The notes under the pieces were generated by a model. That model worked only from the letters and a program-made list of their open reading frames with translations. It made no database searches and was not told the origin of the DNA. Shown one piece after another: positions 1,255-17,108 of a DNA stretch of 38,451 nt; position 1 is the first letter of the stretch; every line of letters starts with the position of its first letter. Source of the DNA: Thiobacillus sp. (GTDB lineage: Bacteria; Pseudomonadota; Gammaproteobacteria; Burkholderiales; Thiobacillaceae); assembly GCA_019459325.1 (NCBI GenBank), contig JAIBFA010000077.1, positions 1-38,451 of the forward strand, written 5' to 3'. Made by a program: the position numbers and the translations under genes.

Positions 1255-4200
1255 ATGACAAACCCGTTTTTCGAGCGGCCAATCCTGAATTCGCCCTACG
1301 AGTACCCGTCTCGCCATTGGGAACTGGATAGCAGCGGCCAGCCGACGCAGCAGATCATCGAGACCCGCCGCCTCGCGGAGTTCATCACGCCGATCCCCAA
1401 ACCCAAGAAACAGAAGGGGGCGGCCAAGCAGGGCGACCTGATCTTTGACGAGGGCAAGGGCCTATCCACCGAGGACCAGCAGTACAGCCACACCGCCATC
1501 ATCAACGCTGTCCGCCAGGAAGTGGACAAGTGGCGGATGATCCCCAACCCCAATGACTGGCACGTCACGCCAGAAACCACCCGGCTGCTCCAGCACTGGC
1601 GGCACCACAAGTTCAGCGGCATCCGGCCGTTCTTCTGCCAGGTCGAGGCTGTCGAGACCGCCATCTGGCTGACCGAAGTCGCGCCGCAGATCGGCAAAAA
1701 CGGTGAGCGCTTTCTGGAACACCTGGCCAACGCCAATAACGCGGCCAACCCGGAGCTGATGCGTCTGGCCCTCAAACTCGCCACCGGTGCCGGAAAAACC
1801 ACCGTTATGGCCATGCTCATCGCCTGGCAGACCGTCAACGCTGTCCGACATCCCAACAGCAAGAAATTCGCTCGCGGCTTCCTGCTGGTCGCACCCGGCC
1901 TGACCATCAAAGACCGCTTACGCGTACTCCAGCCCAACGACCCGGATAGTTACTACCGCAGCCGCGAACTGGTGCCCAGCGACATGATGATCGATCTGGA
2001 ACGGGCCAAGATCGTCATCACGAACTACCACGCGTTCAAGCTACGCGAGCGCATCGAGCTTTCCAAGGGCGGCAGGTTATTGCTGCAAGGCCGGGGCGGT
2101 GATCCTCTCGATACCCAGGAAACCGAGGGGCAGATGATCCAGCGGGTCATGCCCGACCTCATGGGCTTGAAAAACATTCTGGTCATCAACGACGAAGCCC
2201 ACCACTGCTACCGCGAGAAACCCGACCATGCCGCTGAAGACGTTGATCTGAAAGGCGATGACAAGAAGGAAGCCGAGCAAAATAACGAAGCCGCCCGCTT
2301 GTGGATTTCCGGACTCGAAGCCATCAACCGCAAGTTAGGTATCGCCCGCGTCATCGATCTGTCGGCCACGCCGTTCTTCCTGAGCGGATCGGGCTATGCC
2401 GAAGGCACGCTGTTCCCATGGACCTTGAGCGATTTTTCGCTGATGGATGCCATCGAGTGCGGAATCGTCAAGCTGCCGCGGGTGCCGGTGGCCGACAATA
2501 TCCCGGGCGGCGAAATGCCTATGTTCCGCAATTTGTGGGAACACATTCGCGCCAAAATGCCGAAAAAAGGTCGTGGCAAGGCCGAAGGGCTGAATCCACT
2601 CGACCTGCCCACCCAACTTCAGACGGCACTTTTGGCTCTTTACGGTCATTACGAAAAGACCTATGAGCTGTGGGCTGAAAAGAAGGTACCCGTTCCGCCC
2701 TGTTTCATTGTCGTCTGCAACAACACCTCGACCTCCAAGCTGGTGTACGACTACATCTCTGGTTTCCAGCAGCCCCACCCGAACGGCAGCAGCAAACTGG
2801 TCGAAGGTCGCCTAGCCTTGTTCCGCAACCATGACGAACATGGCAACCCGCTGGGACGTCCGCGCACTTTGCTGATCGACAGTGAGCAGCTCGAATCCGG
2901 AGAAGCGCTCGACGATAATTTCCGCAATCTGGCTGCTGACGAGATCGAACGCTTCCGTAACGAAATATTCGAACGCGGCGGCCAACTCGCAAATGAACTA
3001 CGCGCAGGCAAAACCCTGGACGATGCCACCCTGCTGCGTGAAGTTATGAACACCGTCGGCAAGGCCGACCGCCTGGGTGACTCCATCCGCTGCGTGGTGT
3101 CCGTCTCCATGCTAACCGAAGGCTGGGACGCCAACACCGTCACCCATGTCCTCGGGGTGCGTGCCTTCGGCACTCAGTTGTTGTGCGAGCAGGTTATTGG
3201 CCGCGCGCTGCGCCGCCAGTCCTACTATCTGAATGAAGATGGACCCGATAAAGGTCTCTTCAGCGTCGAATACGCCGACGTGCTGGGCATTCCGTTCGAC
3301 TTCACCGCCAAGCCCGTGATCGCGCCACCGCAGCCGCCGCGCGAGACCATCCAGGTCAAAGCTGTTCGGCCCGACCGCGATGCACTGGAAATCCAGTTCC
3401 CCCGGGTACAGGGTTACCGTGTGGAGCTTCCGGAAGACCAGCTTTCCGCCGAATTCGACAACGACTCCGTGCTCGAACTTACGCCAGAGCTAGTGGGGGC
3501 CACCCAAACGCGTAACTCGGGCATCATCGGTGAAACAGTTGATCTGAATCTGATTCATACCGGCGATGTTCGGTCCTCGCAGGTTATCTATGAACTGACC
3601 TCGCACCTGCTGTTGAGCAAGTTCCGCGATGCAAACGGAGAGCCAAAACTACATCTGTTCGGCCAGATCAAACGCCTGGCTCGCCAGTGGATCGAAGGCT
3701 ATCTGGAGTGCAAGGGCGGCACCTACCCAGCGCAACTCAAGTACAAGATGCTGGCCGATATGGCATCCGAGCGTATCGTTGCCGCGATCAACCGCGCCAT
3801 GCTCAAGGCAAAACCCGAGGAGTCCGTGCGTTTCATCAAGGCGGTACTCGACCCATATAACCCGACCGGCACCACCGCCCACGTCAATTTCAACACATCG
3901 AAGACCGACCGCTGGGAAACCGATTCTCGCCGCTGCCACCTCAACTGGGTGATTCTCGACAGCGACTGGGAGGGCGAATTCTGCCGGGTGGCTGAATCCC
4001 ATCCCAAGGTGCGGGCCTACGTCAAAAACCACAACCTCGGTCTGGAAGTGCCGTACCGATACGGCTCTGAAACGCGCACCTACTTGCCAGACTTCATCGT
4101 CCTGGTGGACGACGGCCACGGCGAGGACGATCCCTTGCACCTGATCGTCGAGATCAAGGGCTACCGGCGCGAAGACGCCAAGGAAAAGAAATCCACCATG

Positions 4201-4371
4201 GACACCTACTGGGTGCCAGGCGTGAACAACCTCAAGCAGTATGGCCGCTGGGCCTTTGCCGAGTTCACCGAGGTGTACCAGATCGAGTCCGACTTCCAGA
4301 AAAAGGTCGAATCCGAGTTTAACAAGATGATCGAAGCCGCGGCTACCACGCTGACGGTGAAGGGCAACTGA
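1255..4371 (+). CDS. Type III-like restriction subunit: DEAD/DEAH helicase plus PD-(D/E)XK endonuclease
   Basis: This 1038-residue protein is the ATP-dependent cutting subunit of a type III-like restriction-modification system. The helicase core shows Walker A ATGAGKT (about 178-184), DEAH (about 313), the SAT motif in DLSATPFF (about 370), and motif VI QVIGRALRR (about 646-654). The C-terminus has a PD-(D/E)XK nuclease site: P945-D946, then E966-I-K968 followed by G. All key residues are present, so it should be active. The frame is open from 1006, but I chose ATG 1255 because the N-terminal sequence from there (MTNPFFERPI) looks natural while the upstream part does not and would overlap the divergent gene. 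An ATG at 1207 is a second option. The stop is followed after one base by the methyltransferase start, so both are made from one transcript. Family members of this type act only with their partner methyltransferase. Confidence 0.93.
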   Translation: MTNPFFERPILNSPYEYPSRHWELDSSGQPTQQIIETRRLAEFITPIPKPKKQKGAAKQGDLIFDEGKGLSTEDQQYSHTAIINAVRQEVDKWRMIPNPNDWHVTPETTRLLQHWRHHKFSGIRPFFCQVEAVETAIWLTEVAPQIGKNGERFLEHLANANNAANPELMRLALKLATGAGKTTVMAMLIAWQTVNAVRHPNSKKFARGFLLVAPGLTIKDRLRVLQPNDPDSYYRSRELVPSDMMIDLERAKIVITNYHAFKLRERIELSKGGRLLLQGRGGDPLDTQETEGQMIQRVMPDLMGLKNILVINDEAHHCYREKPDHAAEDVDLKGDDKKEAEQNNEAARLWISGLEAINRKLGIARVIDLSATPFFLSGSGYAEGTLFPWTLSDFSLMDAIECGIVKLPRVPVADNIPGGEMPMFRNLWEHIRAKMPKKGRGKAEGLNPLDLPTQLQTALLALYGHYEKTYELWAEKKVPVPPCFIVVCNNTSTSKLVYDYISGFQQPHPNGSSKLVEGRLALFRNHDEHGNPLGRPRTLLIDSEQLESGEALDDNFRNLAADEIERFRNEIFERGGQLANELRAGKTLDDATLLREVMNTVGKADRLGDSIRCVVSVSMLTEGWDANTVTHVLGVRAFGTQLLCEQVIGRALRRQSYYLNEDGPDKGLFSVEYADVLGIPFDFTAKPVIAPPQPPRETIQVKAVRPDRDALEIQFPRVQGYRVELPEDQLSAEFDNDSVLELTPELVGATQTRNSGIIGETVDLNLIHTGDVRSSQVIYELTSHLLLSKFRDANGEPKLHLFGQIKRLARQWIEGYLECKGGTYPAQLKYKMLADMASERIVAAINRAMLKAKPEESVRFIKAVLDPYNPTGTTAHVNFNTSKTDRWETDSRRCHLNWVILDSDWEGEFCRVAESHPKVRAYVKNHNLGLEVPYRYGSETRTYLPDFIVLVDDGHGEDDPLHLIVEIKGYRREDAKEKKSTMDTYWVPGVNNLKQYGRWAFAEFTEVYQIESDFQKKVESEFNKMIEAAATTLTVKGN

Positions 4372-4372
4372 T

Positions 4373-7180
4373 ATGGCCAAGAAACCCAAGACTCCGCTGA
4401 CCGTCGAAACCCTCAAGCACGACGAGGCCACCCGCAAGAACATTCCCACCGCCGAATACCAGTCGGTTATGCAGAAAGAAGAGCAGTCGCCCGTTCGCGT
4501 CGCCTACGAGCGCCGCAACCGCGACCTCGACCCGCAGCTGGTCTGGCGCGGCAAGGACGAACAGGACTGGTCCGACCTCGTCGTTCACGCGCCGCCGCTC
4601 TACATCCAGGAGAAGGTCCACCCCAAGGTGCTGATCGACGACCTGCGCCGCCGTAGCGAAGCCGATGAAAAGGCCGCTGATCTTCAGGTGGACATGTTCG
4701 CCGACTTCAACGGCCTGCCCAACGACGACGCCAAGACGGAGTTTTACCAGCACGACGCCCATTGGGCCAACCGCATGATCCTCGGCGACAGTCTGCAAGT
4801 CATGGCCAGCCTGGCCGAGCGCGAAGGCCTGCGCGGCAAGGTGCAGTGCATCTACTTCGATCCACCCTACGGTATCAAATTCAACAGCAACTTCCAGTGG
4901 TCAACAACAACTCGTGATGTGACTGATGGAAAGGCAGGGCATATCACACGCGAACCTGAGCAGGTGAAGGCGTTCCGGGATACCTGGCGCGACGGTATTC
5001 ATTCGTACCTGACCTACCTGCGAGATCGGCTTACCGTGGCGCGTGATCTGCTAAATGAGTCCGGATCAATCTTTGTGCAGATCGGCGACGAGAATGTCCA
5101 TCGATTGCGAGCTGTAATGGACGAGGTTTTTGGCGATGAAAACTTCATTTCTCTGGTGACGCTCACAAAAACCACATCTGCGACGAGCGACTACCTGCCA
5201 GGGGTCGCAGATCATGTAGTGTGGTTCAGCAAAAACAAAGCTGCTTGCAAGTACCGCCAATTGCACAAAGAGAAAGCCGCAGGTGGGGATGGTTCTGCAC
5301 ATTATGGCTCTGTGGTATTTCCTGGCGGAGAACGGCGTTCTGCTACTCCAGAAGAGCGGGCTGGAAGGCTTCCAGAAGGAGCAGCGCTGTTTACTCCAGA
5401 TCAGCTGCAATCGACCGGTAGCCACGGAAGCGAAAAAGGTGCTGGAGCTGCATCTTGGTTTGATGTCGAGTGTGAAGGTCGTGTGTTTAGGCCGACTATG
5501 CAAAGCATTTGGAAAACTAGCCAAGCCGGCATGACACGACTTAAGGCTGCGGGGCGCCTGCTGCCGCAGAAAAATTCGCTCCGCTACTTGAGGCGAATCG
5601 ATGATTTTCCTGCTTATGTCCTCACTAACGTATGGACCGACATTGGAGGCGCAGCCGATAAACGCTACGTTGTCGAAACGACACCTAAGATCGTTGAGCG
5701 CTGCATCCTGATGGCAACTGACCCAGGCGATCTCGTGCTCGACCCCACGTGCGGTTCCGGCACCACCGCCTACGTCGCCGAACAGTGGGGCCGTCGCTGG
5801 ATCACGCTTGACACTTCGCGTGTCGCCCTGGCCCTGGCCCGCGCCCGCATTATGGGTGCACGCTATCCTTACTATCTGCTCGCCGACAGCCGAGAAGGCC
5901 AGTTCAAGGAAGCCGAAGTCACCCGCACCGCGCCCTCCAGCCAGGCCACGAACGGCAATATCCGCCAAGGCTTTGTCTATGAGCGGGTGCCGCACATCAC
6001 GCTGAAATCCATCGCCAACAATGCCGAGATCGACGTTATTTGGGACAAATTCCAGCTGACGCTGGAGCCGCTGCGCGAGCAACTCAACAAGGCGCTGGAC
6101 AAGCAGTGGCAGGAGTGGGAAATTCCCCGCGACTCCGACGCCAAATGGCCCGATGCCGCGAAAAAACTGCATGCCGACTGGTGGCAGGCCCGTATCGCCC
6201 GCCAGAAGGAAATCGACGCCTCCATCGCCGCCAAGGCCGAGCACGAATACCTGTACGACAAGCCCTACGAGGACAAGAAGAAGGTCCGCGTCGCTGGGCC
6301 GTTCACCGTCGAAAGTCTCTCACCCCACCGCGTGCTGGCCGTGGATGAAAACGACGAGTTGATCGACCGTGCAACAGAACCTGAACCAGGCTACGGCGAG
6401 GAACGAGACTTCGTTCAGATGATCCTGGAAAACCTCAAGACCGCCGGCGTGCAGCAGGCCCACAAGGAAGACAAGATCAGCTTCACCGCGCTGACCCCGT
6501 GGCCTGGCGACCTCGTCTGCGCCGATGGGCGCTACTTCGAGGGCGGGGAGGAGTCCGGCACCGAGAAGCGCGCCGCCATCTTCATCGGCCCCGAGTTTGG
6601 CACCGTCTCGCGCCCCGATCTGGTGGCCGCCGCCCGCGAGGCCGGCGATGCCGGTTTCGACGTACTCATCGCCTGCGCCTTCAACTACGATGCCCATTCC
6701 TCCGAGTTCGACAAGCTCGGTCGCATCCCCGTGCTGAAGGCCCGCATGAACGCCGACCTGCACATGGCCGAAGACCTCAAGGCCACCGGCAAGGGCAACC
6801 TCTTCGTCATCTTCGGCGAACCCGATATCGACATCCTCGAAGCTGACGGTGGCCAGGTCCGTGTCAAGGTCAACGGCGTCGACGTCTTCCACCCCAACAC
6901 CGGCGAAGTCCGCAGCGACGGCGCCGAGGGCATTGCCTGCTGGTTCATCGACACCGATTACAACGAAGAAAGCTTCTTCGTTCGCCACGCCTACTTCCTC
7001 GGCGCCAACGACCCTTACAAGGCGCTCAAGACTACGCTTAAGGCCGAGATCAACGAAGACGCCTGGGCCACGCTGAACAGCGACACCTCGCGGCCGTTCG
7101 ACAAACCCAAGTCTGGGCGGATTGCGGTGAAGGTCATCAATCACCTTGGGGATGAGGTGATGAAGGTGTTTCGGGTGTAG
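4373..7180 (+). CDS. Type III-like DNA methyltransferase (Mod), beta class
   Basis: This 935-residue site-specific DNA methyltransferase is the modification and recognition partner of the upstream restriction subunit. Catalytic motif IV (DPPY) is at residues 163-166 and the S-adenosylmethionine site (DPTCGSGT) at 457-464. The order of DPPY before the FxGxG-like motif defines the beta class, which usually methylates adenine N6 (or cytosine N4). The roughly 290 residues between the two motifs hold the target-recognition domain. The long C-terminal part (about 500-935) has no motif I recognise but is typical of these large Mod proteins, which bind Res. About 4895-5690 is visibly poorer in GC and uses different codons from the flanks, suggesting exchange of the recognition domain. 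The gene starts one base after the Res stop, and a 13-base gap leads to the next gene. Confidence 0.93.
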   Translation: MAKKPKTPLTVETLKHDEATRKNIPTAEYQSVMQKEEQSPVRVAYERRNRDLDPQLVWRGKDEQDWSDLVVHAPPLYIQEKVHPKVLIDDLRRRSEADEKAADLQVDMFADFNGLPNDDAKTEFYQHDAHWANRMILGDSLQVMASLAEREGLRGKVQCIYFDPPYGIKFNSNFQWSTTTRDVTDGKAGHITREPEQVKAFRDTWRDGIHSYLTYLRDRLTVARDLLNESGSIFVQIGDENVHRLRAVMDEVFGDENFISLVTLTKTTSATSDYLPGVADHVVWFSKNKAACKYRQLHKEKAAGGDGSAHYGSVVFPGGERRSATPEERAGRLPEGAALFTPDQLQSTGSHGSEKGAGAASWFDVECEGRVFRPTMQSIWKTSQAGMTRLKAAGRLLPQKNSLRYLRRIDDFPAYVLTNVWTDIGGAADKRYVVETTPKIVERCILMATDPGDLVLDPTCGSGTTAYVAEQWGRRWITLDTSRVALALARARIMGARYPYYLLADSREGQFKEAEVTRTAPSSQATNGNIRQGFVYERVPHITLKSIANNAEIDVIWDKFQLTLEPLREQLNKALDKQWQEWEIPRDSDAKWPDAAKKLHADWWQARIARQKEIDASIAAKAEHEYLYDKPYEDKKKVRVAGPFTVESLSPHRVLAVDENDELIDRATEPEPGYGEERDFVQMILENLKTAGVQQAHKEDKISFTALTPWPGDLVCADGRYFEGGEESGTEKRAAIFIGPEFGTVSRPDLVAAAREAGDAGFDVLIACAFNYDAHSSEFDKLGRIPVLKARMNADLHMAEDLKATGKGNLFVIFGEPDIDILEADGGQVRVKVNGVDVFHPNTGEVRSDGAEGIACWFIDTDYNEESFFVRHAYFLGANDPYKALKTTLKAEINEDAWATLNSDTSRPFDKPKSGRIAVKVINHLGDEVMKVFRV

Positions 7181-7193
7181 CATCTTCCATAAG

Positions 7194-7952
7194 ATGAACG
7201 AGACACCGCTACACCTCAAAGCTGCGCCTATCGTCGAGGCCGTGCTGGACATCGACTGTGATATGCCGCTGACGATGGATGTTGCTGCGCTGGAGGCGCC
7301 GGCGCGAGTAGAGTACGGCGAGCAGTACCCGAAGTTCCAGCCACAGTTCATGCAGGAATTCATGTTCGAGGCACCCGCGGAAGGAACCGCGAAAGTGACT
7401 AAGAGCAGCCGGGGGGTCCAGGCGCTCCAGTTTTTGCAGGATGACGGCAAGCAGTTGGTGCAGGTGAGGGCGCAGGGGTATTCCTTCAATCGGCTCGCGC
7501 CTTATGGGAGCCTGGACGATTACCTCCCGGAAATGGAACGCACCTGGCAGTTGTTCACAAAAATCGCCCAGCCCGTCAAAATCCGCACGGTGCGCCTGCG
7601 CTATATCAATCGGCTGCTCCTGCCTCTTGAGGCGGGGCGGATCGAGCTGGACGAATACTTGGCTCATGGCCCGCTCCTACCCAGCGACACGGGTCTGGAA
7701 CTTACCGGCTTCGTTCATCAACATTCGGCAGTGGAGGTCGGGACGGGTAATCAGGTCCACCTGGTACTGGCGGGGCAAGCGCCAGAGCAAGAAAAGCTTC
7801 CCGTCATCTTCGATATTCAGGCTTTCCACTCGGGGGATTTGGAACCTTCGGACTGGAAAGGTATTCTGTTGAGGGTCGAGTCTTTGAGACGCCTGAAAAA
7901 CTTGGTTTTTAGAAAGTCCTTAACTGAAAAATGTTTGAATCTGTTTCGGTAG
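7194..7952 (+). CDS. TIGR04255-family protein of unknown function
   Basis: A 252-residue soluble protein that starts 13 bases after the methyltransferase gene. The N-terminal block APIVEAVLDIDCD (residues 10-22) and the later FxRLAPYGSLDDY and TVRLRYINRLLLP segments match what I recall of the sporadically distributed TIGR04255 family. That family has no established biochemical role and often lies near restriction or other defence genes. No catalytic motif, signal peptide or membrane segment is visible. The last 22 bases overlap the start of the next gene, which points to translational coupling. I infer an accessory part of the restriction operon; a regulator or a sensor of the system is possible but not shown. 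Confidence 0.8.
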   Translation: MNETPLHLKAAPIVEAVLDIDCDMPLTMDVAALEAPARVEYGEQYPKFQPQFMQEFMFEAPAEGTAKVTKSSRGVQALQFLQDDGKQLVQVRAQGYSFNRLAPYGSLDDYLPEMERTWQLFTKIAQPVKIRTVRLRYINRLLLPLEAGRIELDEYLAHGPLLPSDTGLELTGFVHQHSAVEVGTGNQVHLVLAGQAPEQEKLPVIFDIQAFHSGDLEPSDWKGILLRVESLRRLKNLVFRKSLTEKCLNLFR

Positions 7953-8467
7953 TCAGTCTCGGCATTGGCGCGATCTATTCGTTGTCAGGCGCTGGCAGCG
8001 CGATTTCACCAGAAGCGCAAACCGTGCAGTCTGCGGCCGTCCAGATTGCGCGAGCCGTGGAAAGCTCACAAGCGTTATTTGGGAGCAAGGCGGCAGCGAT
8101 TTCCCAACTTTGGCAGCTGGCCAACGAGTTTGCCGAAGCGGATTGGGATGGTGACGGTGCGCTGCCGCTGGATCACGCGGCCATTCACAATGCTGTCGCG
8201 TTCATTCGCGCTTTGCCGGATCGCGTCCCTATGCCCGAGTTTGCGCCAGAACCAGACGGCTCGATTTCCCTGGACTGGATTCGGTCGCGGACAAGCGTGT
8301 TCTCACTGAGTATTAGCGCGAGCCACCGGTTGGCGTATGCGTGGCTCGACGGGACGGATCAGGGGCATGCTGTGGCGCGTTTCGAAGGTGGAAATATCCC
8401 GCCTCGTATCCTTGAAGGAATTGAAGGGATCGTCAAGCTTGGCAACGCTGCCGTCCGGTCTGCCTGA
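7931..8467 (+). CDS. Hypothetical protein with W-DGDGA-P and PDG-I-LDW signatures
   Basis: A 178-residue protein that I cannot assign to a named family. Its first 22 bases overlap the end of the TIGR04255 gene. Residues 1-60 are small and alanine/serine-rich. The middle contains ADWDGDGALPL (about 75-85) and EPDGSISLDW (about 108-117), followed by a beta-rich segment that includes SISASHRLAYAW. I recognise this arrangement from many small uncharacterised bacterial proteins that precede a second small gene like the one here, so the two probably work as a pair. No catalytic residues are evident. The following gene overlaps its 3' end by about 29 bases, so both are likely translated together. 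Confidence 0.7.
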   Translation: MFESVSVVSLGIGAIYSLSGAGSAISPEAQTVQSAAVQIARAVESSQALFGSKAAAISQLWQLANEFAEADWDGDGALPLDHAAIHNAVAFIRALPDRVPMPEFAPEPDGSISLDWIRSRTSVFSLSISASHRLAYAWLDGTDQGHAVARFEGGNIPPRILEGIEGIVKLGNAAVRSA

Positions 8468-8852
8468 GTGGGTCGATGACGACGAAGCGCTGGCGAGGTT
8501 CCTGACCTCGTCCAGCCAGTTCAACTCGTTGATGGTCAAACCCACGGCTTTTTTACCCAATCCGAAAAACGGAGAAACATCCGTATTCCGGCATGCAGCG
8601 GATCCGCGCGACGCGTTATGGGAAATTGGCGCGGCTTACGTGGCGGGCGACCGTACCCTGCATGGGGTAGCCGTCTTCAAGGCAAGGCATGTGCGCGAGG
8701 CTGGACTTGAAGTCAAAGCACATGAGCCACCCCCCAGGCACGCCAACATTGTGGACTGGCCTGCGACAGGACTGGATCAGCAAATGATCAAAGCCGAACA
8801 AAAGGAACGCGCCCTGGTCATTGCCAAATTCGCTGAGCTTGTCTGCCAATAG
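8439..8852 (+). CDS. Hypothetical protein, probable partner of the preceding gene
   Basis: A small protein of about 137 residues with no function I can name. The start is uncertain. I chose TTG 8439, which has GAAGGG about 12 bases upstream and leaves a 29-base overlap with the gene before. In-frame ATGs at 8337 and 8370 would give a longer overlap and an unnatural N-terminus. Recognisable blocks are GLPEWVDDDEALARFL, NSLMVKPTAFLPNP and a C-terminal EPPPRHANI segment followed by a lysine/glutamate-rich helix. It looks soluble and has no membrane segment. It lies 39 bases before the helicase gene in the same direction. The overlap with the preceding gene suggests the two proteins are made in equal amounts and may bind each other. 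Confidence 0.65.
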   Translation: MATLPSGLPEWVDDDEALARFLTSSSQFNSLMVKPTAFLPNPKNGETSVFRHAADPRDALWEIGAAYVAGDRTLHGVAVFKARHVREAGLEVKAHEPPPRHANIVDWPATGLDQQMIKAEQKERALVIAKFAELVCQ

Positions 8853-8891
8853 CCATTGCGGCTGGATTCCCATGCCGGAAACTGCCTGTTA

Positions 8892-10964
8892 ATGAACTTC
8901 CTTATCGCGGACACCTTTACCGACAGTCTCGCCAAGCTCACGGGCGATGAACAGAAGAGCGTTAAGACCACGGCCTTCGACCTGCAACTGAACCCGTCCA
9001 ATCCGGGTATGAGTTTTCACAAGCTCGACAAGGCTCGGGACAAGAGCTTCTGGTCAGTGCGGGTGAGTAGCGACATCCGCCTGATCGTGCATAAGACGGC
9101 GTCCAGTCTGCTGTTGTGCTACGTGGATCACCATGACAAGGCCTACGAATGGGCCGAACGTCGCAAGCTGGAAGCGCACCCGACAACCGGAGCGGCTCAG
9201 CTCGTCGAGATCCGGGAAACGGTGCAGGAAATCACCATCCCGAAGTATGTCGAGGTCGAGCGTGCTGCCCCGGCAAAGCCACGACTGTTCGATCATGTCG
9301 CAGAAGAAACTCTGCTGAGCTATGGCGTGCCGGTGGAATGGCTGCCGGATGTGCGCCAGGCTGACGATGACAGCCTGCTGGAGTTGGCAGGCCACTTGCC
9401 GGGAGAGGCGGCCGAGGCCTTGCTTGAACTGGCTACGGGTGGCACGCCGCAGATAAGTCCACGGGTAGTTGCTGGCGTTGACCCCTACAGCCACCCGGAC
9501 GCCCTGCGACGCTTCCGGGTGATGAACGACGTCGAGGAGCTTGAGCGGGCGCTGGCGTACCCTTGGGAAAAGTGGACGACCTTCTTGCATCCCGCCCAGC
9601 GGCAGTGGGTAGAGCGCGACTACAGTGGTCCCGCGCGTGTTTCCGGCTCGGCCGGTACGGGGAAGACTATCGTAGCCCTGCACCGCGCTGTGTTTTTGGC
9701 TCGCAGTCAGCCCGAATCCCGTGTGCTACTGGCCACGTTCTCTGACACATTGGCGAATGCGCTGCGCACGAAGCTCCGGCGTCTGATCAGCAATGAGCCT
9801 CGATTGGCGGAGCGTCTGGAAGTCCACGCCATGAATGCGATCGGTGAGCGGCTCTACGAACAGCGATTTGGCCGCCCCCGAATTGCATCGCGGGATCAAG
9901 TCAGACAGTGGCTGGAAGAGGCCGCAGCCAAGGCAACCGGCCTGAAGTTCACGCTCAATTTTCTGCTGACCGAGTGGGAAGACCTGGTGGACACCTGGCA
10001 GCTGGACAGCTGGGAGGCGTACCGCGACGTGAAACGCCTAGGGCGCAAAACCCGCCTGCCCGAGGCCCAGCGTGCCGCGCTCTGGTCGGTGTTCGATGCC
10101 GTCCGCGGCCGTCTCAAGCATGAAGAGTTGATCACCTATGCCGGCCTGTTCAATCGGCTGGCCGAGGATCTGGCCGGCCGCAAGCACCCGCCCTTTGACT
10201 ACGTGGTGGTCGACGAGGCGCAGGACATTAGCGTGGCCCAACTGCGGTTCCTGGCAGCCATGGGCGCAGACCGGCCCAATGCACTGTTCTTTGCTGGCGA
10301 TCTCGGCCAGAGGATCTTCCAGCAGCCTTTCTCCTGGAAGTCGCTCGGGGTGGACATACGAGGTCGCTCGCGCACCCTGAACATTAATTACCGCACCTCA
10401 CACCAGATCCGGGCGCAGGCCGATCAGCTGCTGGGGCCGGAGGTGGCCGATATCGATGGCAATGTGGAAACGCGGCGCGGCACAGTTTCCGTATTCAATG
10501 GCCCGGCGCCCTCCATCCGGATATTCGACAGCCAAAACGAGGAGGGCAGTGCAGTCGCCGCCTGGCTGGGTGACCGAATGAAGGAAGGACTGGCCCCGCA
10601 CGAGATCGGGGTGTTCGTGCGCTCCAATTCGGAGCTGGAGCGTGCCAAGGTGGCCGTGACCATGGCCGGGTTGCCTTACAAGGTCTTGGACGAGCACGTG
10701 GAAACGGTCAGCGGCAAGGCTTCCATCAGTACCATGCACCTGGCCAAGGGCCTGGAGTTCCGCGCCGTGGTGGTGATGGCCTGCGACGACGAAATCATCC
10801 CCCTTCAGGCGCGGATTGAGGACGTGGCGGACGAGGCCGACCTGGAGGAGGTTTACAACACGGAACGCCATCTGCTGTATGTGGCGTGCACCCGTGCGCG
10901 AGACCATCTGCTGGTGACGAGCGTCGACCCCGCATCCGAGTTTCTGGAGGACTTGGGGGCTTGA
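8892..10964 (+). CDS. UvrD/Rep-type superfamily 1 helicase with N-terminal RelE-like domain
   Basis: A 690-residue protein with two parts. Residues 1 to about 95 resemble a RelE/ParE/HigB-type toxin fold: a MSFHKLDKARDKSFWSVRV strand region, then DIRLIVHK and a final CYVDHHDKAYEWAERR. The rest is a UvrD-like DNA helicase with Walker A SAGTGKT (about 252-258), motif II VVDEAQD (about 438-444), the MHLAKGLEF segment (about 614-622) and motif VI YVACTRARDHLL (about 662-673). The frame extends up to a TTG at 8856, but ATG 8892 gives the natural start of the RelE-like domain. It is the last gene of the operon and ends 4 bases from a convergent gene. Known proteins of this layout are annotated only as helicases. 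I infer a DNA-acting effector or repair module for the restriction cassette; whether the RelE-like part cleaves RNA is unknown. Confidence 0.9.
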   Translation: MNFLIADTFTDSLAKLTGDEQKSVKTTAFDLQLNPSNPGMSFHKLDKARDKSFWSVRVSSDIRLIVHKTASSLLLCYVDHHDKAYEWAERRKLEAHPTTGAAQLVEIRETVQEITIPKYVEVERAAPAKPRLFDHVAEETLLSYGVPVEWLPDVRQADDDSLLELAGHLPGEAAEALLELATGGTPQISPRVVAGVDPYSHPDALRRFRVMNDVEELERALAYPWEKWTTFLHPAQRQWVERDYSGPARVSGSAGTGKTIVALHRAVFLARSQPESRVLLATFSDTLANALRTKLRRLISNEPRLAERLEVHAMNAIGERLYEQRFGRPRIASRDQVRQWLEEAAAKATGLKFTLNFLLTEWEDLVDTWQLDSWEAYRDVKRLGRKTRLPEAQRAALWSVFDAVRGRLKHEELITYAGLFNRLAEDLAGRKHPPFDYVVVDEAQDISVAQLRFLAAMGADRPNALFFAGDLGQRIFQQPFSWKSLGVDIRGRSRTLNINYRTSHQIRAQADQLLGPEVADIDGNVETRRGTVSVFNGPAPSIRIFDSQNEEGSAVAAWLGDRMKEGLAPHEIGVFVRSNSELERAKVAVTMAGLPYKVLDEHVETVSGKASISTMHLAKGLEFRAVVVMACDDEIIPLQARIEDVADEADLEEVYNTERHLLYVACTRARDHLLVTSVDPASEFLEDLGA

Positions 10965-12696: not shown

Positions 12697-13530
12697 ATGG
12701 CTAAGCGGGACGGCCGCGAAATCGCGTTGGCCAACGAAGAGCGGGTCCTAAAGTCGCTATTCAAGTTTGGCTGGCTACGCACCAGGGACATCGCGGCATT
12801 GCACTGGATGCCAAAAATGAAGCGCGAAGGCCTTGGCTTCGAGCCCGTCCAAGTTGCGGTTTCGCCTACAGCACGGCGGATGGCGCAGCGTACGTTGCGG
12901 CGGCTGAGACAGCGTCATATGGTCGTGTGGATTCAGGCTCCTGACGGGAGCACGATCTTCGGCCTTTCAGAGGCTGGTGCGCGTCGGCTAGTGAGTCTTG
13001 GGATACCCGCAAAGTCTGGGAAAGACTTGATCCGCCGTGTCAGCCTTTCGCACTTCCACCACCGGCGTATAGCCAATGAGGTCGCCATAGGCGCGCTGTT
13101 GCAGGGATTCCGGGCAAACACCGAGCTTGAAATCGCCGCCGGGCAGTGGCTTGGTGGTAAGGACGGGGTGGCCGGTAAAAAACCCGATGTTGTAGTACGG
13201 GATGGACGAAAAAATACTTGGTTCTGGGAGATTGAAAGAAGCGCTCGCAATAAGGCCGGATACGCTTCCCTGATTGAGGCCTTGCTGGCCATGTGGCCTG
13301 AAGACACGAGACAGGCAGGGCCTGCCTCGCTATCCGACGGCCATAGACTTCACCAAGTGGTATTCCTGGCGAATGCGGCGTTCATCGAACGTGTGTGCAA
13401 CGATCTTCTGAAGGCCGGATGGACAGGGGACATGGTTAACCAGCGAATTGCTAGTGTGAAGGTGCTATACGTAACAGAGGCCAAATTTATTGCGTACAAG
13501 GACAGGGCAGAGGTGGCATCTCCTGCTTGA
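12697..13530 (+). CDS. Winged-helix, nuclease-fold-like protein of the replication-relaxation type
   Basis: A 277-residue soluble protein starting at ATG 12697 with GGAGA 6 bases ahead. Residues 1-100 look like a winged helix: a 'LRTRDIAALHW' segment, a helix MAQRTLRRLRQRHMV, and a wing leading to FGLSEAGARRLV. An HFHHRRIANEVAI segment (about 114-126) follows. The second half has KPDVVV (about 163-168) and FWEIERSARN (about 176-185), a spacing that resembles a PD-(D/E)XK nuclease fold. This layout (DNA-binding wing, histidine helix, PD...E.E) matches what I know of the Replic_Relax group found on plasmids and integrative elements, some of which act with relaxases. It sits alone next to the hairpin-rich region, which could hold its DNA target. 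The family assignment is by pattern only. Confidence 0.6.
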   Translation: MAKRDGREIALANEERVLKSLFKFGWLRTRDIAALHWMPKMKREGLGFEPVQVAVSPTARRMAQRTLRRLRQRHMVVWIQAPDGSTIFGLSEAGARRLVSLGIPAKSGKDLIRRVSLSHFHHRRIANEVAIGALLQGFRANTELEIAAGQWLGGKDGVAGKKPDVVVRDGRKNTWFWEIERSARNKAGYASLIEALLAMWPEDTRQAGPASLSDGHRLHQVVFLANAAFIERVCNDLLKAGWTGDMVNQRIASVKVLYVTEAKFIAYKDRAEVASPA

Positions 13531-13696: not shown

Positions 13697-14050
13697 TTAT
13701 GCAGCTCTTCGCTTTCTAGTGCTTGGCTTTGTAGCGCACTCAGCCTGAGCCTGATGCTCTTTTAGTTTCTCAGCCACCATCGCGTTCCAAAATTGCCTTT
13801 TCTCGCCGTCAATGAAGCGCTGCAAAATTTGCTTCATCAGCGTTTGATAGCCCATGCCACCATTCAAGGCCGAGATGGTTTTTAGATCCTCAATCATCGT
13901 TTTCTGCATGCGAATTGAAATAAGCTGCGTACCGGCAGCCGCATCAATCTCTTGGTCGATGTCGACTTCGCTGACCTTCACGAAGGCCTCATCCGCGCCC
14001 AAAATTCGCTCATCCCAAGCTTCATCCGTTGATGCTATGGTCTTGTTCAT
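13697..14050 (-). CDS. BrnA/CopG-like antitoxin (ribbon-helix-helix)
   Basis: A 117-residue protein, start ATG 14050 with GGAG about 10 bases ahead. The acidic N-terminal half (to about residue 40) would wrap a toxin. Residues 42-80 read as a ribbon-helix-helix: strand QLISIRM, helix KTMIEDLKTISALNGG, then a helix QTLMKQILQRFI. The C-terminal tail is rich in K, R and A. It lies 123 bases downstream of the BrnT-like gene on the same strand. That toxin-then-antitoxin order is the usual one in BrnTA modules, where the antitoxin also represses the operon. An intrinsic terminator follows. Whether the antitoxin matches this toxin exactly is inferred from position. Confidence 0.75.
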   Translation of the reverse strand: MNKTIASTDEAWDERILGADEAFVKVSEVDIDQEIDAAAGTQLISIRMQKTMIEDLKTISALNGGMGYQTLMKQILQRFIDGEKRQFWNAMVAEKLKEHQAQAECATKPSTRKRRAA

Positions 14051-14173
14051 TCCCGTGCTCCAGCTCTATAAGTAGTTTAAAGTATGTAAGTAAGTACTGA
14101 TATTGGCTAACGACCAGAACTGTGTAGATACGTTATCGGCGTTTCTAATTAGAATGTTTAGAGGAAGTTTAGT

Positions 14174-14461
14174 TCACTGGCCGTATTTTTCATATATACG
14201 AATTTCGTTCGCATCGGGCGGGAAAGCGCTTCGTAAGTAAATCTTGCCCTTATCCAAGATAAAAATAACCTTCAGCTTGCGGCCGCAATTGGTCTCAGCG
14301 ATGAACCATAGGGTCGGCGGGTCCGTGCGGTGCTGTTCTCGCGGGTCTTCAAGGGGTTTCCCGCAGCGGTTGGTAAAACATTCATGCACCTCCTGGGGCG
14401 TAACAGAATGCTTATACGCCAGTTTGTGCTCAATGTTTTCGGAGATAACTATGTGCGCCAT
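14174..14461 (-). CDS. BrnT-like toxin
   Basis: A 95-residue basic protein, start ATG 14461. It has the BrnT/RelE-superfamily feel: N-terminal IEHKLAYKHSVTPQEVHECF (residues 10-29), a central TLWFIAETNCGRKLKVIFIL strand pair, and a C-terminal IYLRSAFPPDANEIRIYEKYG. In BrnT the H..V...EV, GR.LKV and R.A..P....Y positions are conserved and the protein is a ribonuclease. Some databases call such proteins ADP-ribosyl-dinitrogen reductase hydrolase, which I think is a misnomer here. It is the first gene of the pair, directly behind a good promoter. Such pairs commonly stabilise mobile islands. Confidence 0.75.
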   Translation of the reverse strand: MAHIVISENIEHKLAYKHSVTPQEVHECFTNRCGKPLEDPREQHRTDPPTLWFIAETNCGRKLKVIFILDKGKIYLRSAFPPDANEIRIYEKYGQ

Positions 14462-15956: not shown

Positions 15957-17108
15957 ATGAGCAAGAAAGACAGCAAACCATCCCCCCAAACCGAGGCCAC
16001 ACTGAGCCGGCGGAAGTTTCTCGGCGCAGCGGCGGCGACAGCGACCGGCGCAGCGACGCTCGGTTTTCCCTCGATCGCAAAGGCGCAGGCACCGATCAGT
16101 CTGCGCTTCCAGAGCACCTGGCCGGCAAAGGACATCTTCCACGAATATGCGGTGGACTTCGCCAACAAGGTCAATGCGATGTCCGGCAAGGAACTCCGTA
16201 TCGAGGTGTTGCCGGCGGGGGCGGTGGTCAAGGCCTTCGACCTGCTTGATGCGGTGAACAAGGGCACGCTGGACGGCGGTCACGGCGTGGTGGCCTACTG
16301 GTATGGCAAGAACTCTGCTGTGGCGCTGTGGGGCTCCGGCCCGGCCTTCGGCATGGACCCCAACATGGTGCTGGCCTGGCACTACTACGGCGGCGGCAAA
16401 GAGCTGCTGGATGAAATCTACAAGGGCATGAATATGGACGTGGTGTCGATGCTCTACGGCCCGATGCCGACCCAGCCCTTCGGCTGGTTCAAGAAGCCGA
16501 TCACCAGCGTCGAGCAGATGAAAGGCGTCAAGTTCCGCACGGTGGGCCTTGCGGTGGACATGTACAAGGAGATGGGGGCCGCGGTGAACCCGCTGCCCGG
16601 CGGCGAGATCGTGCCGGCCATGGACCGCGGCCTGCTCGACGCGGCCGAATTCAACAATGCGTCTTCAGACAACCTGCTCGGGTTCCCGGACGTGGCCAAG
16701 GTCTGCATGCTGCAGAGCTTCCACCAGTGCAGCGAGCAGTTCGAGATCCTTTTCAACAAGAAGAAATACAACGCGCTGAATGCCGAGCACAAGGCCATCA
16801 TCAAGCATGCGCTCGAAGCGTCGTCGGCTGACATGTCCTGGAAGGCGATCGACCGCTACTCCAAGGACTACATCGACATGAGCACCAAGAAGGGTGTCAA
16901 GTTCTACAAGACGCCCGACGCCATCCTGCGCAAGCAGCTGCAGGCCTGGGACAAGATCATGGCCGCCAAGAGTGCCGAGAACCCCTCGTTCAAGCGGGTG
17001 CTCGACTCGATGCGCGCTTTCGCCGGCCGCGCGGCGCGCTGGCAGAACGACACCAACGTGGACTACAAGATGGCGTACAACCACTTCTTCGCCAAGAAGA
17101 AGGGCTAA
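15957..17108 (+). CDS. dctP: TRAP transporter solute-binding protein (DctP/TakP-like)
   Basis: A 383-residue periplasmic receptor. ATG 15957 has AGGAG 6 bases ahead. A twin-arginine signal (SRRKFLG, residues 17-23, then an alanine-rich core ending AKAQA near 45) shows export by the Tat route, a feature of several TRAP receptors. The mature part has the conserved layout of the mannitol/chloroaromatic/oxo-acid TRAP receptors: PAGAVV about 87, the WGSGPAFGM block, then FRTVGLAVDMYKEMG and the PLPGGEIVPAMDRGLLDAAEF block (about 205-225), whose arginine normally binds the substrate carboxylate. dctQ and dctM follow. The downstream enzymes act on tartronate semialdehyde, hydroxypyruvate and glyoxylate, so I infer a small hydroxy- or oxo-acid as substrate; it is not proven. 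Confidence 0.92.
   Translation: MSKKDSKPSPQTEATLSRRKFLGAAAATATGAATLGFPSIAKAQAPISLRFQSTWPAKDIFHEYAVDFANKVNAMSGKELRIEVLPAGAVVKAFDLLDAVNKGTLDGGHGVVAYWYGKNSAVALWGSGPAFGMDPNMVLAWHYYGGGKELLDEIYKGMNMDVVSMLYGPMPTQPFGWFKKPITSVEQMKGVKFRTVGLAVDMYKEMGAAVNPLPGGEIVPAMDRGLLDAAEFNNASSDNLLGFPDVAKVCMLQSFHQCSEQFEILFNKKKYNALNAEHKAIIKHALEASSADMSWKAIDRYSKDYIDMSTKKGVKFYKTPDAILRKQLQAWDKIMAAKSAENPSFKRVLDSMRAFAGRAARWQNDTNVDYKMAYNHFFAKKKG

Follow-up and report, generated by a model that had tools for sequence, protein, structure and literature searches.

The locus considered here raises the question of whether six genes packed into a single run constitute one restriction system, or whether a restriction system carries something else inside it. 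The run occupies positions 1,255 to 10,964 of a contig from Thiobacillus sp. (GenBank assembly GCA_019459325.1, contig JAIBFA010000077.1), which was analysed over its whole length of 38,451 bases (hereafter the window) and belongs to a genome that is 88% complete and divided among 112 contigs. The answer favored here, with a probability of roughly three in four, is that a restriction endonuclease (Res), a DNA methyltransferase (Mod), and a UvrD-like helicase form a type III-like restriction-modification (RM) operon acting as a carrier with two cargo positions, the second of which holds, in the window, the cassette TIGR04255-HP1-HP2, by association an independent anti-phage module.

All six open reading frames (ORFs) are intact, lie on one strand with zero internal stops, and are separated by +1, +13, −22, −29, and +39 bases, which reproduces exactly the genes, coordinates, and spacing given by the original prediction made from the letters of the DNA. 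Terminator-like sites in the region, for which it had denied an internal terminator, are at chance level (10 vs 10.4 expected), and its gene names agree with family searches in NCBIfam, Pfam, and PADLOC, the RelE part of the helicase excepted. The parts of the operon are as follows:

1255..4371, + strand: core gene 1, Res, a BPTD_3080-family type III-like restriction endonuclease (helicase + nuclease), 1038 aa, NCBIfam NF046055
4372..4372, + strand: slot 1 (between Res and Mod), empty in the window
4373..7180, + strand: core gene 2, Mod, a type III-like DNA methyltransferase, 935 aa, PADLOC PDLC03632 MTase_III
7181..8891, + strand: slot 2 (between Mod and UvrD), an interchangeable cargo position, from length comparison across 76 loci
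7194..7952, + strand: cargo gene 1, TIGR04255 family protein, 252 aa, TIGR04255 E 7.7e-32
7931..8467, + strand: cargo gene 2, HP1, a small protein with function unassigned, 178 aa, profile A4
8439..8852, + strand: cargo gene 3, HP2, a small protein with function unassigned, 137 aa, TTG start, profile A5
8892..10964, + strand: core gene 3, UvrD-like SF1 helicase with a possible RelE-like N-terminal domain, 690 aa, Pfam UvrD-helicase/UvrD_C

Restriction Core with Two Cargo Positions

The comparison covered 105 loci, namely 80 from a genome survey, 19 from viral contigs, 5 from plasmids, and the window itself, the survey being a Mod-alignment scan of public genomes in which at least 533 stretches matched and the 80 ranking highest by Mod similarity were taken. 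Res, Mod, and UvrD follow one another in that order and on the same strand in 76 of the 105; the remaining 29 were excluded, with UvrD missing from 26, Res from 5, and both from 2. A slot was called empty when shorter than 150 bases and filled when it reached 150 bases or more. The slot-2 length of L046 was counted across a UvrD remnant; Mod remnants shorten slot 2 in L059 and L064 as well as slot 1 in L054, which leaves the filled and empty counts unaffected.

On a plasmid of Pseudomonas avellanae, the three core genes are directly adjacent with nothing between them, and plasmids of Gemmobacter, Rhizobium, and Sphingomonas have differing genes in the Res–Mod and Mod–UvrD intervals. Slot 2 is filled in 61 of the 76 ordered loci, by 150 bases to 9.9 kb of mostly unrelated genes, and is empty in 15, where UvrD begins 2 to 43 bases after Mod. 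Since the helicase takes up this position whenever slot 2 is empty, it is, on comparison of the loci, a regular though not obligate third gene of the restriction operon. A search of 300 genomes from the order of the window yielded UvrD, at E 1e-100 or better, in 11, counting the window's own. At 9 of these 11 places it lies beside Mod, both genes being fragmentary in G129, and the other two (G241 and G242) are at contig ends and thus undecidable. Conversely, Mod relatives (60% identity or more) stand at 15 places in these genomes, 9 of which have UvrD downstream; of the six without it, two lie less than 3 kb from a contig end (G295, G075), and four (contig 27 of G129, G038, G146, G258) have no UvrD match alongside. 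This sample overlaps the survey, as L026 is the locus of G135, and so does a class-level sample, in which L046 lies in G390. After filtering by length, 57 of the 76 cores remained, and their pairwise distances correlate at r 0.89 for Res and UvrD, 0.79 for Res and Mod, and 0.78 for Mod and UvrD, with 0 of 2000 Mantel permutations as high in each case. The comparison thus indicates that the core genes are conserved and co-vary.

Slot 1 is filled in 47 of the 76 loci and empty in 29; both slots are filled in 43 and both empty in 11. The cargo ORFs (at least 90 aa, called mechanically) run with the core in 183 cases and opposite to it in 7, and they fall into 107 sequence clusters, 37 of which occur in several loci and 70 of which were not found in more than one; family tallies cover 106 of the 107 cluster representatives (69 + 37), and the cassette genes of L046 stand outside the cluster set. 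Only 1 of the 37 multi-locus clusters occurs in both slots, whereas shuffling the slot labels 2000 times gave 23.8 on average and never fewer than 14, from which the two slots appear to draw on nearly separate gene pools.

Strong PADLOC matches to defence systems or defence candidates are numerous in slot 2. They include Dsr1 (E 0), LmuB of Lamassu (2.9e-165), HerA (4e-257), a short Argonaute (7e-143), IetS (2e-32), PDC-S06 (2e-190), PDC-M32A (1.4e-138), and PDC-M32B (1e-51), in addition to HEC-06, a BrxH/DrmD-like helicase, and an ordered QatA–D set in L036. Together with their cluster mates, the PADLOC-named proteins account for 19 of the 64 loci with a delimited filled slot 2 (79 loci with UvrD minus the 15 empty ones), among which there are some near-copies (L104, L105, L119). 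Among the slot-2 proteins scanned one at a time, those of L053, L089, and L096, the second gene of L052, and the cassette genes of L084 and L120 gave no PADLOC match at the limit used. Single small genes are common in slot 1, such as Fic/SoFic (a 10-locus cluster), PDC-S02, PDC-S13, HEC-01, and GmrSD-like proteins. The arrangement therefore has the features by which embedded defences are recognized, in that the cargo lies between core genes and on their strand, is exchangeable, and is accompanied by a core known also without it. In three loci in which UvrD was not seen within 8–10 kb (L055, L072, L078), Mod is followed by genes forming similar runs by length alone (about 390, 270, 229, and 410–420 aa), which are possibly a larger unnamed cargo system.

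The cargo moreover changes independently of the core, as far as the comparison of loci goes. The slot-2 cargo of the cores nearest to that of the window, L025 (15% apart) and L026 (19%), consists of an AAA-type ATPase and LmuB. Among the 25 closest pairs of cores, which are 5 to 21% apart, only L046 and L084 have a slot-2 gene of at least 90 aa in common. Cargo sharing is nevertheless somewhat commoner among closer cores, since pairs with common cargo have a median core distance at the 23rd percentile for slot 2 and the 29th for slot 1. Five loci have, in a slot or adjoining one, duplicated pieces of the bordering genes, namely UvrD starts in L046 (first 75 residues) and L084 (first 50), Mod ends in L059 (last 28 residues) and L064 (last 37), and a Mod start in L054; weaker matches at a limit of E 0.01 occur in slot 2 of L101 (18 residues, E 0.005) and, outside the operon, in L025 (E 0.001) and L093 (E 0.005). 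We infer that the strong remnants are leftovers of recombination at the gene ends. In L046 (12940–20146), the 75-residue UvrD start stands between two slot-2 cargo blocks, as if a new block had been added behind an old one.

TIGR04255-HP1-HP2 Cassette

The three genes occupying slot 2 of the window are found, all present and in the same order, in 20 loci. Four of these cassettes lie inside the operon (window, L046, L084, L120), and two are beside ruined core genes: in L018, a Mod end precedes the cassette and a broken UvrD follows it, and in L017, it is followed by a 29-residue UvrD start (E 1e-5). The other 14 are without a core gene in the DNA examined, an absence that is limited by the fact that 7 of the 14 lie on stretches of only 5 to 12.5 kb. 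Comparison of these loci shows TIGR04255-HP1-HP2 to be a coherent cassette that is present also outside the operon. L120, an IMG/VR contig, has the complete six-gene order as well, and because of this repetition the arrangement in the window is not a matter of chance. The original prediction had proposed that the grouping would be accidental if its last four genes were rarely adjacent to each other or to Res and Mod; judged in this way, the three cassette genes do keep together, but only 4 of the 20 are in an intact operon, and it is UvrD that stays with Mod, at the 9 of 11 places given above.

Searches with the single genes gave a similar picture. The HP2 profile found 7 other genomes, three of which had supplied sequences to it (G070, G140, G193) and four of which had not (G295, G763, G787, G791), and HP1 and TIGR04255 are alongside in all 7. 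With the TIGR04255 profile, 6 viral loci were found, 1 of them contained in the profile; both partners are present in 4 of the other 5, and the last, L156, has a marginal HP1 only (E 0.005). HP1 as a single-protein bait recovered 7 other genomes of the window's order, with TIGR04255 upstream in 5 and not in G221, and with G277 cut off. The cassette is rare: counting the window's genome in each case, HP2 occurs in 5 of the 300 order-level genomes and 4 of the 398 in a phylum sample. The plasmid collection has no match for HP1 or HP2 and one distant match for TIGR04255, the phage collection has no TIGR04255 match, and PHROGs has none to the three window proteins. On a cyanobacterial plasmid (L166, 6001–7831), two small genes that the HP1 and HP2 profiles do not match stand behind a TIGR04255 gene, in the neighborhood of a type I RM system.

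The three proteins of the cassette have no credible PDB sequence relative and no full-length match in PADLOC, Pfam, or PHROGs. One known candidate close to it is PDC-M32, a pair (A + B) that occupies the same slot 2 in L066, L104, L105, and L119 and whose A model fits a 367-aa protein of L066. By hhalign, the C-terminus of PDC-M32A is similar to HP1 (E 4.4e-5, probability 69), as is PDC-M32B to HP2 (E 3e-4, probability 40), and the gene order is common to both sets; each likeness is weak, and together with the shared slot they are suggestive. Membership in PDC-M32 was rejected, as HP1 matches the PADLOC model PDC-M32A over 69 residues only (7e-5) and HP2 and TIGR04255 match nothing of it; the cassette is thus a possible distant relative of that system. 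The N-terminal part of PDC-M32A is unrelated to TIGR04255 by hhalign, so that HP1 and HP2 may stay together as a pair while the partner varies. HP1 was also considered as kin of the RmrA/capP-like slot-2 protein of L052, to which it has no similarity.

The predicted fold of HP1 (pLDDT 72) has zero structural matches. The AlphaFold2 model of HP2 (pLDDT 93) has none at E 0.001 or better, and viral proteins yielded nothing useful; its nearest neighbor, KptA/Tpt1 (E 0.06, TM 0.38, not significant), has an ADP-ribosyltransferase-like fold, which gives a weak hint that HP2 may be of that kind. A His-Ala pair is invariant in HP2. That the cassette is an abortive-infection-type module is a working guess from association.

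Family Assignment of the Core Genes

Type III RM systems cleave DNA in an ATP-dependent manner and require two unmethylated sites in inverted orientation. Res of the window matches NCBIfam NF046055 (“BPTD_3080 family restriction endonuclease”) with 1357 bits against a cut-off of 800, and in Pfam ResIII (3.6e-9) and RE_endonuc (4.3e-5, 23.7 bits at a cut-off of 23.4). The motifs GAGKT at 178 and DEAH at 313, together with EIK at 966 within the nuclease-domain match, give it the SF2 helicase and PD-(D/E)XK nuclease domains of a type III Res. Mod matches PADLOC MTase_III (E=0) and Pfam N6_N4_Mtase. In beta-class methyltransferases, the DPPY motif precedes the GSG motif, and in Mod, DPPY at 163 is ahead of DPTCGSGT at 457, so that by motif order and the 1-base gap a beta-class Mod adjoins Res. 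In comparison with classical type III RM systems of the EcoP15I type, the two proteins share these domains (N6_N4_Mtase in Mod, ResIII and RE_endonuc in Res) but differ in that Res is barely seen by PADLOC REase_III (E 2e-4) and has its own NCBIfam family, and in that a UvrD-like third gene is present.

The helicase part of the third gene, described in the original prediction as a RelE-fused UvrD, is borne out by Pfam UvrD-helicase/UvrD_C and by the motifs GTGKT (255), VVDEAQD (439), and TMHLAKGLEF (614). The RelE part fared less well, as the match is a HigB-like one below the Pfam threshold (E 0.007, 17.2 bits vs a cut-off of 27) with zero PDB sequence matches; from the sequence, a RelE-like N-terminal domain is plausible. 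UvrD also matches GajB models of PADLOC (8.8e-24), and Gabija was rejected as an identity because GajA, which stands beside GajB in that system, is absent among the listed matches of the eight other window proteins scanned. As for Hma (helicase-methylase-ATPase), Res matches REase_III models only, and no Hma model is found among the best 25 of 54 Mod matches or the best 25 of 48 UvrD matches.

A few observations concern relatives of the core genes elsewhere. In L159 (648–8011), Res is interrupted by two ORFs, and Mod ends early (query residue 609). Relatives of UvrD with 31–50% identity occur in L167, L016, and L015: on an E. coli and a Thermus plasmid they adjoin a large methyltransferase and a DEAD helicase, and in Qipengyuania the neighbors are a small gene, a RecB-like nuclease, and a DUF4011 gene.

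Model and Alternative Explanations

In the model proposed here, which for the core draws on family knowledge, Mod would mark self DNA, Res would translocate and cut unmarked DNA, and UvrD would unwind or process DNA in the same reaction. The cassette would be an independent anti-phage module, by association probably abortive-infection-like, which gains the RM promoter and joint transfer from its position and would take over once phages escape restriction. A more far-reaching form of the model, in which the operon is an evolved carrier whose bays have their own gene pools and are reloaded by recombination at the bordering gene ends, and in which TIGR04255-HP1-HP2 is an undescribed anti-phage system (possibly with an ADP-ribosyltransferase-like HP2) traveling both in the bay and alone, is tentative and is given slightly less than even odds.

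It has to be noted that several points weigh against the carrier model. The survey set was picked by Mod similarity, many of its loci come from metagenome bins, and it contains near-copies (L104 and L119; L110 and L116). The result of the slot-fidelity test is inflated by shared descent, in that slot-1 cargo is common to related cores such as L110 and L116, and the mechanical calling of cargo ORFs slightly prefers the core strand. UvrD is absent from 26 of the 105 loci in the DNA examined, 19 of which have at least 7 kb downstream of Mod, and the core distances were correlated without a control gene outside the operon, which makes co-evolution and common genome history inseparable. The defensive role of the cassette, finally, is assigned by association only, because no PADLOC model fits it.

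The alternative that survives best, although it is unlikely, is that the cassette acts on the RM core as a regulator or restraint, e.g. by limiting self-restriction, and does not attack phages. Consistent with that, searches of PADLOC, Pfam, NCBIfam, and the PDB revealed no toxin or nuclease signature in TIGR04255, HP1, or HP2, and small cargo is frequent in slot 1; on the other hand, the cassette is mostly found away from the RM core, and its slot is common to genes of known defence systems. Improbable to a greater degree is one extended six-gene restriction system, with the three small genes as dedicated subunits of Res and Mod, which was among the proposals of the original prediction and to which the overlapping genes and the repeated order in L120 lend some support. 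Against it stand the close cores that have other cargo or none and the cassettes found mostly away from core genes, in 14 of 20 cases without any in the DNA examined, albeit half of these on short stretches.

The other proposal, of a second defence module riding on Res and Mod, came close to the carrier model, except that the rider has three genes and not four, UvrD belonging to the restriction core. Taken literally, as a four-gene module TIGR04255-HP1-HP2-UvrD, it is marginally less probable again: the four genes are contiguous in the window, L120, L046, and L084, but UvrD directly follows Mod in the 15 loci free of slot-2 cargo, its distances parallel those of Res (r 0.89), it was not found beside 14 of the 20 cassettes, and both the UvrD 5′ scrap of L017 and the broken copy in L018 look like relics of a slot that once existed there. 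That the slots gather random passenger DNA with nothing selected for defence has a negligible probability, for although 70 of the 107 cargo clusters were not in more than one locus and slot content was assessed without comparison to genes outside the operon, the strand bias of 183 to 7, the ordered QatA–D of L036, and the slot-specific pools speak against it.

Relation to Known Embedded Defences

Defences embedded in RM operons are known in type I systems. PrrC lies inside the EcoprrI type I RM operon (PMC12707154), DarTG2 between hsdS and hsdR (PMC12255303), and TgvAB in a type I RM operon, where the embedded pair protects alone (PMC11411939); a second defence within type I systems has also been described (PMC12629846). 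The likeness to the window is that a separate defence stands between the genes of an RM operon, and the differences are that the host operon of the window is type III-like, has a UvrD-like third core gene, and offers two slots with different pools. PDC candidates derive from guilt-by-embedding (PMC12988326), and the HEC and PDC candidates of Payne et al. 2024, as described in PMC12988326, PMC12255303, and PMC11411939, follow the same principle; PDC-M32, PDC-S06, and HEC-06 occur in the slots described here. The embedding host named in those descriptions is Hma, and TIGR04255-HP1-HP2, for its part, fits no PADLOC model. Among the papers searched, none with BPTD_3080 or TIGR04255 was found and none was recognized as a description of this operon, its slots, or the cassette, although the guilt-by-embedding preprint of Payne et al. 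2024 might cover the operon. The slots of this operon and the cassette are thus apparently new, in the sense of not having been found in print.

Genomic Surroundings

The suggestion that the operon is on a mobile island finds partial support. Homology to a 20-kb stretch of G167, the only genome of the same genus in the comparison, begins at window position 16026, the first 1254 bases of the window have no match in G167, and a Replic_Relax match (Pfam) lies at 12697–13530; no tRNA was found in the window. Beside the same TRAP-transporter locus, G167 has two large genes that by eye are HsdM- and HsdR-like (L172, 9481–14704), and because these lie to the left of the shared homology, the site may vary in restriction loci and is perhaps a chromosomal hotspot for them. 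Downstream of the operon, on the − strand at 13697–14461, a CopG-like antitoxin (a weak PF12441 match below the cut-off) and a 95-aa neighbor, BrnT-like by eye and with no Pfam match, are possibly a toxin-antitoxin pair.

Implications

If the carrier model is true, one widespread restriction operon would serve as an index to new defence systems, in that anything found in either interval, Res–Mod or Mod–UvrD, becomes a candidate, and the cassette of the window and its many unnamed neighbors would be directly testable. The gene-end remnants would offer a checkable hypothesis for how defences are swapped inside an operon with the core left intact, and the type III-like group would gain a frequent third gene.

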